A stretch of 64,000 nt of DNA from Deltaproteobacteria bacterium. GTDB lineage: Bacteria; Myxococcota_A; UBA9160; SMWR01. Below are positions 760 to 8,386 of this stretch, piece by piece. The notes under the pieces were generated by a model. It did not search any database and was not told where the DNA came from. It was given only the letters and a program-made list of their open reading frames with translations. How positions within the stretch are numbered: position 1 is the first letter of the stretch; the number at the start of each line of letters is the position of its first letter. The position numbers and the translations under genes were made by a program. The stretch is from contig PBYF01000059.1 of the NCBI GenBank assembly GCA_002729515.1, positions 1-64,000 of the forward strand, in the 5' to 3' direction.

Positions 760-1926
760 ATGGCCGAACTCCACGAGCCGGACCCGGACCCCGCCGGCGT
801 ACTGCGCCTCGTCAGGCGTGACCGTGCCGCCGCCCAGAAGCAGGTGGGTTCCCTCACGCTCGAACAGCAGGTCGCGCTCGTCTGCTCGGCCCCCGTCCGG
901 CAGCGCCAGGAGCTGCTCGAGTTGCTTCCGGAACCGGAGCGGGCAATCGAACTCCTCCCGGAGGCCGAATTCTGCTTCACCGTGAAGGCGCTCGGACTCG
1001 AAAGTGCGCCCTGGATCCTCGAGCACGCCACGCCCAATCAGGTCGCGGCCGCAATCGACCTCGACGCGTGGAGCGAGCACGCTCTCGTTGGCGCAAAGCT
1101 GGGCGCCTGGCTCGACGCGCTTGCCGAATCGGAAGACGAAGCGTTGCTGCGCTCGCTGAGCAACATCGATTCGGAGTTGCTCGTACTCTGGCTGCGCGAT
1201 CGGATCGCGGTCTTCATCAAGCCGTCGGACGATGAGGGGTGGACGCCGCCCGACGGCAGCCAGACCCTCGAGGGCCAGTTCTACTTCGTCTCGCTGCGCA
1301 CGGGCGACGATGTAGCGACGATCCAGCGCTTGCTGCAAGCACTCTTCCGCGCCGACTACTGGACCTACTTCCGCCTCATGCAGGGCGTCATCCACGAGCT
1401 TCCGACCGAGGTGGAAGAGTGGGCGCTGCGCTGGCGCAACGCGCGACTCCAGGACCTGGGCTTCCCGAGCTGGGAGAACGCCATGCGGCTCTACCAGTAC
1501 CTGAGCCCGAAAGAACGCGCGACACTTCCTCCGGGCGAGAACCCCCTAGACGTCGCCGCCTGGGACCTACCCGTCTGGATGCCGAGCCTTCCGGAGGCCG
1601 GTGCGGAGGGCCGCACCGTCTTCCGCGCAATTGCGCGCCTGGAGGAAACCGAGCGCCGCGCGGCCTTCTTCTCCTTCGCCGCCATCGCGAACGCCGTCGC
1701 CGTCGCCGACCACATGGAGCTGTCGGATTCGGAAACCACGCCGCGCGCCATCGAAAAAGCCGCCCGTTGGATCGACCGTGGCCTGGCACACCTGGCCGCC
1801 GAGCACGGGCTCACAGACGAAGAAGTCCTGCGCCGCGTGTCCTTCCAACACCTCTTCCGCCTGGGTGCAAATCTCGACCCGGAGCGCGCGCGCCCCCGCC
1901 GCACGCCGGAAGCACCCGGGGCCTGA
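760..1926 (+). CDS. DUF6178-like protein of unknown function
   Basis: A soluble, Glu/Leu-rich protein of 388 residues with no signal peptide or membrane segment. It appears mostly alpha-helical. The segment LQDLGFPSWENAMRLY and the following YLSPKE resemble DUF6178 proteins, which are common in deltaproteobacteria and have no assigned biochemical role. That family match is from memory of the motif and should be treated as tentative. The ATG at 760 is preferred over an upstream in-frame ATG at 559, which lies inside the opposite Nudix gene. The coding end is followed by a strong hairpin at 1936-1962. Confidence 0.7.
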   Translation: MAELHEPDPDPAGVLRLVRRDRAAAQKQVGSLTLEQQVALVCSAPVRQRQELLELLPEPERAIELLPEAEFCFTVKALGLESAPWILEHATPNQVAAAIDLDAWSEHALVGAKLGAWLDALAESEDEALLRSLSNIDSELLVLWLRDRIAVFIKPSDDEGWTPPDGSQTLEGQFYFVSLRTGDDVATIQRLLQALFRADYWTYFRLMQGVIHELPTEVEEWALRWRNARLQDLGFPSWENAMRLYQYLSPKERATLPPGENPLDVAAWDLPVWMPSLPEAGAEGRTVFRAIARLEETERRAAFFSFAAIANAVAVADHMELSDSETTPRAIEKAARWIDRGLAHLAAEHGLTDEEVLRRVSFQHLFRLGANLDPERARPRRTPEAPGA

Positions 1927-1935
1927 ACTTGCGAA

Positions 1936-1962
1936 AGGCCCGCCGGCAGAGCCGGCGGGCCT
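1936..1962. terminator. Bidirectional hairpin terminator
   Basis: A perfect 12-bp GC-rich stem (AGGCCCGCCGGC, 1936-1947) pairs with 1951-1962 across a 3-base loop. It sits between the convergent DUF6178-like gene (stop at 1926) and the histone-fold gene (stop at 1985). There is no T-tract, so it may work as a bare hairpin in both directions. Confidence 0.75.
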
Positions 1963-1984: not shown

Positions 1985-2191
1985 CTAAAGGTCGACGGCC
2001 TTCAGCGTCTTGCGCTTGTTGCCAACGGCGCGCGCTTCGGCGCCCTTGATCAGTGCACGTACCGCCACATCGAGCGCACCATAGAACTCGCCACCGACGT
2101 TGCACTTCTTGACCGCGGCCTTCGTCCGGGCCTTCGAAATAATCAAATCTCCACCACCGCGCTTTGCGGCCTTCTTTCGTCGCGCTGCCAT
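1985..2191 (-). CDS. Small bacterial histone-fold protein
   Basis: A 68-residue, lysine/arginine-rich protein that is probably a DNA-binding chromatin protein. The N-terminus is a basic tail (MAARRKKAAKRGG). A short helix SKARTKAAVKKC follows, then a long helix starting GGEFYGALDVAVRALIKGAE, then NKRKTLKAVDL. The last segment matches the loop-2/helix-3 signature (GRKTxxAxDL) of archaeal histones and of the Bdellovibrio histone family. The start was set at the second Met (2189-2191) because GGGAGG (RNA sense, 2196-2201) lies at good distance before it; the first in-frame ATG at 2201-2203 overlaps that Shine-Dalgarno. It is monocistronic and faces the hairpin at 1936-1962. Function is inferred from the fold signature and size only. 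Confidence 0.75.
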   Translation of the reverse strand: MAARRKKAAKRGGGDLIISKARTKAAVKKCNVGGEFYGALDVAVRALIKGAEARAVGNKRKTLKAVDL

Positions 2192-2382
2192 GTTTCCTCC
2201 CATCTACACCGCGTCATCGATACCGGTCGTCGCCGGAACGACCCGGCTAGAACCTCAACTCGCTCGAATCGGACGTCATCGCCCGCCGTCGCGAGGGCCG
2301 GATCATAAGCACTTTCAGGACAGGTTCCAACGAAAAACTACTCGAATTTCGCCCTCCGGTGCCCGTTTCCGGACAATCGGGG

Positions 2383-3168
2383 TCAGAGGACCCCGACCCC
2401 CTGCCGCAGCGCGGGCAACATCGTCTCGACTGGCTCGGCGAGGCGAAAGTCGGCCACCGCATCGTAGGGGGTCTCAGAGGCAGCGAGGATCGCGGTGCGG
2501 GCGCCTGCGCTCCGGGCCCTGTCGAACATTCCATTGACCGGACCCACCACCAGAGAGGTTCCGGCCGCGACAAAAAGATCGCAGGCGGCGGCAGCATCCA
2601 TGGCACGCTTCAGATCGGCTGCGACGAGCTCCTGACCAAACGAGATGGTCGCGGGCTTCCAGGCTCCACCGCACCCACAGCACGGGACCGCGACTCCCGA
2701 CTCCCAGATCTTCTGCGCGAAGCGACGCGGCTCCCGGACCCCGCAACCCACGCACACGACGGCGGAATCGGTCCCGTGGATGTTGACGAGCCGATCGACG
2801 GGAAATCCGCTGCGCTCGTGGAGCCCGTCCACGTTCTGGCTGACGAGCAACTCGATCTGACCCAATTCCGCGAAATCCGCAAGCGCGCGGTGGGCCGGGT
2901 TCGGCTCCGCATTGCTGATGAGCTGCCACGTCTCGCCCTTGTAGCGCCAGTACTCCTCGCGCGCCGTCTCGCTCGCCAGGAATTCCTGGATCGGTATCGG
3001 CTGGTAGTGCTCCCAACGCCCCCCAGGAGAACGAAAATCCGGGATCCCGGAAGCCGTGGAAAGTCCGGCCCCGGTCAGCACGACCACGGTGCGCGCCTCC
3101 GCCCAGCACCCGGCGAGTTCGTGAACGTCCGACACGGCCGAAATGTACACTGCGTGTGTGGCACCCAT
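2383..3168 (-). CDS. Sir2-family NAD-dependent protein deacylase
   Basis: A sirtuin of 261 residues. The NAD-binding motif [16 protein letters not shown] is near residues 32-47, QNVDGLH near 111-117, and the catalytic His is in NIHG (H131). The zinc site is formed by C139-x2-C142 and C163-x2-C166. The later segment SFGQELV takes the place of the usual FGE. It would remove acyl groups from protein lysines using NAD. The start is uncertain: the ATG at 3166-3168 gives a short extra N-terminus and overlaps the start of the divergent aldolase gene, while GTG at 3133-3135 would give a more compact protein. The stop codon lies in a small inverted repeat (2379-2394). Confidence 0.9.
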
Positions 3169-4180
3169 CGACCTGCGCAGCGACACGGTCACTCGCCCCA
3201 CCGCGGCAATGCGCCGGGCCATGGCCGCGGCCGACGTCGGAGACGACGTCTACGGCGAGGACCCGACCGTGAACCGTCTCCAGGAGACGGCCGCACGGCT
3301 CCTCGGCAAGCAGGCGGGGCTTTTCGTCCCATCGGGCACGATGGGCAACCAGGCCTCGATTCATCCCTTCGTGCGTCCCGGCGAAGAAATACTCGCCGGC
3401 CACGGCGCCCACGTACTGCGCTACGAGTCCGGGGCGGCGGCGGCCCTGTCGAGCGTCCAGGTGGTGTCGATCGGTGAAGGCGGGACCTTCGACGGAGCCG
3501 ACGTGCGGGCGGCCGTGCACCCGGACGAGGCCCACTACGCGCCGACCCGGGTCGTCGCGGTGGAGAACACCCACAACGCGGCCGGCGGTCGCATCTTCTC
3601 GCTCGAGCGCGTGAAGGACGTCGCGGCGGCAGCGCGGGAACACGGACTGCACCTCCACCTCGACGGCGCGCGGATCTGGAACGCGGTAGTCGCGACCGGA
3701 ACACCCGCTGATGTCTGGGCCGCTCCCTTCGACACGGCAACCTTCTGTCTCTCGAAGGGACTCGGCTCCCCGGTCGGCTCCGTGATCTGCGGCTCGGAGC
3801 CGACCCTCCGGCGCGTGCACCGCGCCCGCAAGATGCTGGGCGGCGGAATGCGCCAGGCCGGCATCCTGGCAGCAGCCGGCCTGCACGCTCTCGAGCACCA
3901 CGTCGAGCGGCTCGCCGACGACCACGCGAACGCGCGGCGTCTCGCCGAAGGTCTCGCCGAGCTGGGCTTCCGGGTGGACCCAATGCCCGAGACGAACATC
4001 GTGCTCTTCGACGTCGAGGACACCGGGGCCTTCGCCCGGGCCACCCGGGCGCGCGAGGTCTGGATCAACCCGATGGGAACGGGCCGCTTCCGGGCAGTGA
4101 CCCATCTCGACGTCTCGGCGGACGACATCGAGGACGCCTTGGCGCGAATCGGTGCGGCCTCACGGGAGGGGGTGCGGTGA
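3143..4180 (+). CDS. Low-specificity L-threonine aldolase
   Basis: A PLP fold-type I enzyme of 345 residues that cleaves L-threonine and L-allo-threonine to glycine and acetaldehyde. The protein opens with [12 protein letters not shown], typical of the GLY1/LtaE family. PLP-related features are [22 protein letters not shown] (the cofactor Asp) and [12 protein letters not shown] with the Schiff-base lysine K205. Length is normal for the family. Either ATG 3143 or GTG 3158 could be the start; GTG would begin [10 protein letters not shown] and avoid most of the overlap with the divergent sirtuin gene. The stop TGA overlaps the GTG start of the next gene by four bases, so the two are probably co-translated. 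Confidence 0.92.
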
Positions 4181-7329: not shown

Positions 7330-8313
7330 TCAGCCCCGGGGTGCAAGCCCCGCCGCCCGGTAGATCGCGTCGATGACTCGCATGTTGGCAACACCGTGCG
7401 CCGCGTCGGTGGGCATGGGCACGCCTTCTCGCACCCAGCGCACGAAGGCGCGGAGTTGTCCGGTGTAGGTCGAGTCGCCGGAAACCCGCTCGCGACGGTC
7501 GCCGTTGGGCGACTTCACGCGGAGGCGATGGAAGAAGTGAGGCGCCACCGGGTTGAAGGCGCGCAGCTCCCCATGTTCACCGCGCGCGATGGCCCGCAGC
7601 TCGAACAGACGGGCGGACCACAGCGAGCAGCGCACGCGGCCCGTAACGCCCCCCGGAAAGCGCAACTCCGCCTCGGTGAAGCGATCGACGCCGGGCCGGA
7701 GCTGCTTCGAACGGGCGCTCACCACCTCCGGTTCCGACCCGGCGAGGAAGCGCACGATGCTCACCGGGTAGCAGCCCGCATCCATGAGGGTGCCGCCCGC
7801 CAGCGCGAGCTGGTAGCGGATGTCGTTGAAGAACGGCAGCGGGAAGCACATGCCGGCTTCGACGTGGCGAATTGCTCCGAGCTCCCCGCTGTCGACGATC
7901 TCGCGCATACGCGCGGCGAGCGGGTGGTAGCGCCAGTGAAACGCTTCGGCGACCACGAGCCCGGTTCGGTCCGCGGCGTCGGCCATGCGCGTCGCCTCCT
8001 GTTCGTTGGAGGCAAGGGGCTTCTCGCAGAGCACGTGCTTCCCGGCGTCGAGTGCGCGCAGCGTCCACTCGCAGTGCAGGCCGTTCGGAAGCGGGTTGTA
8101 GATCGCCTCGATCTCCGGATCGGCGAGGAGCGCGTCGTAGCTGGCATGCACCCGGGGAATTCCGTGCTTTGCGGCGAATGCCCGGGCGCGCTCCGGATCG
8201 CGGGCGGCCACCGCCACGACTTCCGCCCCGGCGAGTTCGCGCGCCGGACGCACCAACGCCGGGGGGGTGATCCTCGCAGCGCCCAGGGTTCCGATGCGAA
8301 GCGGCTCCAGCAC
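7330..8313 (-). CDS. Gfo/Idh/MocA-family NAD(P)-dependent oxidoreductase
   Basis: A sugar-dehydrogenase-like protein of 327 residues. The Rossmann start is [13 protein letters not shown], followed by [12 protein letters not shown]. The family signature [14 protein letters not shown] carries the conserved EKP lysine. MDAGCYPV, in the C-terminal domain, matches the usual DxGxY/H region. Similar proteins act on dihydrodiols, sugars or inositols, but the substrate cannot be read here. GTG at 8311-8313 was chosen because the extra upstream residues would run through a tandem repeat (8321-8386). It is likely co-transcribed with ilvD downstream. Confidence 0.88.
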
Positions 8314-8320
8314 GACCCTG

Positions 8321-8386
8321 CCTATCACGAATCGCGGCCCATGCCTACCGCGAATCACTGCCCATGCCTACTGCGAATGACGGGAC
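8321..8386. repeat. 23-bp imperfect tandem repeat, nearly 3 copies
   Basis: Units at 8321-8343, 8344-8366 and 8367-8386 (incomplete) share the pattern CCTAyCrCGAATCrC followed by CCCATG in the first two. The array occupies the space between the divergent Gfo/Idh and F420-type oxidoreductase genes, where promoters for both should lie. Confidence 0.8.

Follow-up and report, generated by a model that had tools for sequence, protein, structure and literature searches.

A predicted face-to-face histone of a bacterial order that also encodes HU, and its sirtuin neighbour in one genome

A 68-codon open reading frame in the genome of a Deltaproteobacteria bacterium (GTDB phylum Myxococcota_A) encodes a lysine-rich protein with a histone-like C-terminus, and next to it, on the same strand, lies a gene for a Sir2-family deacylase. 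The locus thus raises the question of whether the protein is a real histone, of which type, and whether its neighbourhood reveals a partnership with the deacylase. We analysed a stretch of 64,000 nucleotides (contig PBYF01000059.1, positions 1 to 64,000; hereafter the window). Histones of the α3 type are sparse in bacteria, occurring in 1.15% of bacterial proteomes as given in PMC11390915, and HLp of Leptospira is described in PMC12701072 as the first bacterial face-to-face (FtF) histone characterised by experiment. The features relevant here are as follows.

766..1926, plus strand: DUF6178 protein, convergent with the histone gene (Pfam PF19676, E 3.2e-70)
1937..1961: perfect inverted repeat of 11 bp in the gap between the histone and DUF6178 genes, which converge (read from the sequence)
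1985..2191, minus strand: bacterial histone assigned to the FtF type, 68 aa (ORF translation, profile match, predicted helices)
2201-2196, minus strand: Shine-Dalgarno sequence GGGAGG of the histone gene (read from the sequence)
2330..2302, minus strand: sigma-70-like promoter TTGGAA-17-TATGAT of the histone gene, after the sirtuin stop (promoter scan)
2383..3222, minus strand: Sir2-family deacylase (Pfam SIR2, E 2.5e-34; best PDB match 1ici, E 6.1e-35)
3143..4180, plus strand: beta-eliminating lyase/threonine-aldolase-type enzyme (Pfam PF01212, E 1.4e-102)

The window also carries a 26-bp tandem repeat at its left edge (1-91; 3.5 copies, 100% match) and a 23-bp tandem repeat at 8311-8383 (3.2 copies); no tRNA (ARAGORN) and no Rfam match were found in it.

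The reading frame and its histone family

The ORF is read on the minus strand; its ATG occupies 2191-2189 and its stop codon ends at 1985. Its product is laid out as a charged tail (residues 1-15), α1 (20-29), α2 (34-57) and a short α3 (65-67), with a computed pI of 10.9 and net charge of +13. Both the lysine-rich N-terminal tail, MAARRKKAAKRGGGD, and the C-terminal end NKRKTLKAVDL are present as the initial annotation had described them. Many relatives likewise have GGAGG-like motifs upstream of the start of their histone genes. When the 54-codon cores of 23 relatives (drawn from 80 histone loci) were compared with that of the window, 112, 113 and 526 differences fell at first, second and third codon positions, respectively; this excess at third positions indicates that the ORF is real and under coding selection. 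A family-profile search found one copy in the genome of origin (4.44 Mb, 149 contigs; G000).

To place the protein, we used an alignment of 44 sequences, consisting of the window and 43 loci picked by eye from the 80 with near-duplicates left out. As a single sequence, the histone matched two FtF histones with solved structures (PMC11390915; PMC12701072) in a PDB search, the archaeal HTkC at E 0.0015 and HLp at E 0.67. With the 44-sequence profile these matches strengthened to E 3.6e-10 for HTkC (9f2c) and 5.8e-5 for HLp (9qt0), versus 0.12 for the Bdellovibrio dimer histone HBb (8cmp) and 0.078 for HmvA (8bdk). R54, N58, R60, T62 and D67 are invariant in all 44 sequences, and their spacing is identical to that of the FtF signature R48, N52, R54, T56 and D61 (Schwab et al. 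2024, PMC11390915). K20 and K24 are also invariant and R22 nearly so, and one of these may be the counterpart of K16, the conserved α1 lysine of the FtF logo. The same source lists Myxococcota among the carriers of FtF histones and describes the tails of bacterial FtF histones as mostly positively charged; tails in the 44 sequences have a median length of 14 residues and a net charge of +4, and three loci (L078, L080 and L081) lack one. RKTLKAVDL aligns with the RKT motif of both HTkC and HBb, so the resemblance reflects homology rather than chance. The gene is thus best filed, from its sequence, as a real bacterial histone of the FtF type, which would form tetramers; since HTkC has Glu at the N52 position, N58 alone is no proof of them.

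Other assignments were discarded. The histone has no Pfam match (no family at E 1 or better), and sub-cutoff NCBIfam matches to citrate lyase gamma (E 0.0081) were taken as chance. A pseudodimeric DUF1931 histone is ruled out by the length of 68 aa, the single fold and the lack of a Pfam match, and the HU/IHF family by the lack of a PF00216 match.

The AlphaFold2 monomer (mean pLDDT 70.6, pTM 0.39) has helices at 20-29, 34-57 and 65-67. In this moderate-confidence model, α3 is truncated to the 3-4 residues, and α2 shortened to 24, as expected of an FtF histone. The top three of 732 Foldseek matches were HTkC (9f2c, two chains) and then HLp (9qt1), with E values of 0.037 to 0.071 and none at 0.001. 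VIA-align gave Z scores of 3.2-3.7 to FtF, dimer and nucleosomal histones alike among the 50 matches listed, the best being HTkC; being unable to separate these types, it was left out of the choice between them. Three results back the histone fold proposed at the outset, namely the match of the profile to histones of solved structure, the predicted helix pattern and the Foldseek order, while with Foldseek E values above 0.001 and Z scores of at most 3.7 the FtF assignment rests mainly on sequence.

One related locus (L062:4998-5375, the same locus as L143, from genome G037) encodes two FtF histone folds fused in a single 125-aa ORF with a 10-residue linker, on a 169-kb contig. The 53-codon cores of the two folds have the same DNA sequence, so the fusion either arose by duplication not long ago or is an artefact of assembly. 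A dimer model sought through this natural doublet was too poor to use (pLDDT 55, pTM 0.38).

The best surviving alternative, though an unlikely one, is a dimer histone of the HBb type that bends DNA as a dimer only. HBb (Bd0055 of Bdellovibrio bacteriovorus; PDB 8CMP, 8FVX) shares the single short histone fold and the RKT motif, remains a weak match to the profile and practically ties with HTkC in VIA-align (Z 3.5 versus 3.7), and Schwab et al. (PMC11390915) list bacterial dimers in Myxococcota_A. However, the equivalents of R54 and N58, invariant in 44/44 sequences here, are missing from HBb and, according to PMC11390915, from bacterial dimer histones, and the profile matches FtF histones far better. 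The likeness to Bdellovibrio histones that had been suggested therefore holds in a wide sense only, signature and profile placing the protein nearer the tetramer-forming FtF histones.

Among these, HTkC (Thermococcus kodakarensis, PDB 9F2C) is the best match in both profile and Foldseek searches; it differs by its Glu in place of Asn (N58), and archaeal FtF histones are described as generally tail-less (PMC11390915). HLp (Leptospira perolatii, PDB 9QT0-9QT2) shares the single histone fold, the N-terminal tail and the R..N.R.T....D signature. In contrast to the locus studied here, where DUF6178 is the neighbour, the Leptospira gene lies beside SMC and MAP according to PMC12701072.

Distribution, HU and the convergent DUF6178 gene

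The histone was found in 56 of 60 related genomes, and in all 32 of those with a completeness of 90% or more and a contamination of 5% or less; these sets of relatives count the genome of origin in. Among 377 sampled genomes of the phylum, it occurs in 75/79 genomes of the same order, 8/11 of a further family of the same class (f12) and only 3/287 elsewhere, the split being a hand count from the rows of the search. The histone is thus nearly fixed across the order, common in the class and absent from most of the remaining sampled phylum. The records of the 80 histone loci are mostly titled Myxococcota, Myxococcales or 'Deltaproteobacteria', and the other titles are Latescibacterota, Methylomirabilota, Planctomycetota, Krumholzibacteriota, Eisenbacteria and Gemmatimonadetes. 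In two records titled Latescibacterota chromosomes (L055 and L056), histone identity is 77 and 80%.

HU-family genes are present in 60/60 genomes, with two separate PF00216 genes in the genome of origin, whereas L. perolatii is described as lacking HU (PMC12701072). DUF6178 constantly accompanies the histone: the two are linked in 50 of the 55 genomes that have both, and of the 43 loci with at least 3 kb downstream of the histone, 37 have DUF6178, convergent in every case. In four of the five unlinked cases the histone contig ends within 2.8 kb downstream and so gives no evidence of unlinking; the fifth (G058) does. A literature search on the name DUF6178 found no paper. The inverted repeat at 1937..1961 is a possible two-way terminator for the convergent pair; it has no strong T run and was not flagged by the terminator scan.

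With HU in every genome a general DNA packer is not missing, and the protein could instead have a non-packing job, such as membership of a protein complex or local regulation; the constant DUF6178 neighbour also counts in favour of this. The charge of +13, the conserved RxTxxxxD motif and the wrapping of DNA by the homologue HLp all speak for DNA packing instead, and we regard such a job as distinctly improbable.

Transcription and the sirtuin neighbour

A single promoter was found upstream of the window's histone gene, versus a mean of 0.0 in shuffled sequence. Of the 56 loci, 41 have a comparably good promoter ahead of the histone gene, versus a mean of 0.75 and a maximum of 2 over 20 shuffle rounds. 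The conserved promoter-like site, along with the strong Shine-Dalgarno sequence, points to separate transcription; most likely the histone gene is a transcription unit by itself.

Of the 56 upstream regions, 50 were kept as leaders and six skipped because no clear -10 was seen or the distance was out of range. In the 5' leaders of several relatives, a GGGG(G) run comes directly after a small hairpin (for example L115, L116, L120, L122, L134, L140, L147, L154, L156 and L162). Among the 34 leaders with a G run, to which the test was confined, 20 have a stem of at least 5 pairs beside it, versus 9.0 on average and never more than 17 over 200 shuffle rounds. The arrangement is possibly a regulatory leader; the histone leader in the window lacks a G run of this kind.

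The sirtuin gene does lie beside the histone on the same strand in the window. Comparison with the N-termini of relatives puts its start more probably near 3135 than at 3222; the sirtuin and the threonine-aldolase-type gene stand head to head, and their likely starts, placed in the same way, would be very close together (3135-3160). Across relatives, a sirtuin is found near the histone in 13/56 loci (with flanks of up to about 6 kb), or in 10/42 when at least 4 kb upstream of the histone is available; 11 of the 43 loci without it have less than 4 kb upstream. It directly adjoins the histone in only five of the 56 (the window, G001, G003, G041 and G049), and in 8 of the 13 linked loci at least one opposite-strand gene (amidase, alpha/beta hydrolase and others) lies in between, which excludes a single transcript there. 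No sirtuin is nearby in any of the 14 histone loci taken as other phyla.

Of the 60 genomes, 17 encode a sirtuin closely related to this one (E 1e-99 or better; at least 61% identity), and in 13 of them it lies within 10 kb of the histone. The four unlinked ones are all in one family (f10), and a search of their stretches for other genes of the block found none; in G025 of this family a metallo-beta-lactamase-like gene precedes the sirtuin, as read from the locus. A tree of the 17 sirtuins was poorly resolved and was left out of the gain/loss decision. As a linkage control, the threonine-aldolase-type gene is linked to the histone in 23/35 genomes, about as often as the sirtuin (Fisher p 0.53, only a guide, as the genomes are related). 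Linkage here therefore measures conserved gene order.

These observations bear on whether the two genes form a functional pair, in which the sirtuin would strip acyl groups off the lysine tail and so tune DNA packing. The 13/17 linkage and the lysine- and arginine-rich tail fit such a pair, and in Streptomyces the sirtuin CobB1 is described as controlling the acetylation of the HU protein HupS, and acetylated HupS as binding DNA less well (PMC11229371). Against it stand the 43/56 loci lacking a sirtuin in the stretch examined (up to 6 kb), the scarcity of direct adjacency, the intervening divergent genes, the histone's own promoter-like site and the equally linked control; the same observations led us to reject a histone-sirtuin operon. 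In a literature search on histones with sirtuins or Myxococcota, no report of this gene pair appeared among the titles and abstract openings listed. We consider the pair very unlikely. The adjacency had been called suggestive but possibly due to chance; a survey of whether it persists in relatives left the partnership unsupported, and pure chance does not describe it either, for the linkage goes back to inherited gene order. Both genes belong to an old syntenic block, the sirtuin only part of the time, and it lies beside the histone mainly for that reason. Nothing beyond gene order ties the window's sirtuin to the histone; regulation by lysine deacylation would be possible by analogy.

A proposed role beside HU

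Taken together, we think it probable that the gene encodes a single-copy, single-domain bacterial FtF (α3-truncated) histone that is transcribed on its own, serves general nucleoid architecture beside HU and has the sirtuin as an inherited neighbour. The directly established parts of this reading are the coding ORF, its FtF homology and signature residues, the promoter-like site, near-universal presence in the order and coexistence with HU. By analogy with HLp, for which PMC12701072 reports DNA wrapping, and with HTkC, two histone folds would pair by handshake into a dimer, and a ring-shaped tetramer would arise from two dimers meeting face to face at the R54/N58 region. Some 60 bp of DNA may then wrap round the tetramer with no sequence preference, the lysine-rich tail adding non-specific contacts, and the histone would act as a general architectural protein of the nucleoid next to HU.

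A bolder version holds that the whole class fixed the FtF histone as a core chromatin protein together with HU, that its tail is reversibly acylated and that the linked sirtuin is the eraser in the families that keep it. We give this little credence, even less than the simple pair; if true, it would amount to a histone-modification system in bacteria. The locus carries a caution in this respect, as the adjacency of histone and deacylase is explained by inherited gene order.

FtF histones were already known in bacteria; notable here are the near-fixation of one in a single order alongside HU-family genes and its wide occurrence in the class. Since histone and HU-family genes occur together, unlike in Leptospira, this lineage is a useful test case for how a histone and HU share one chromosome.
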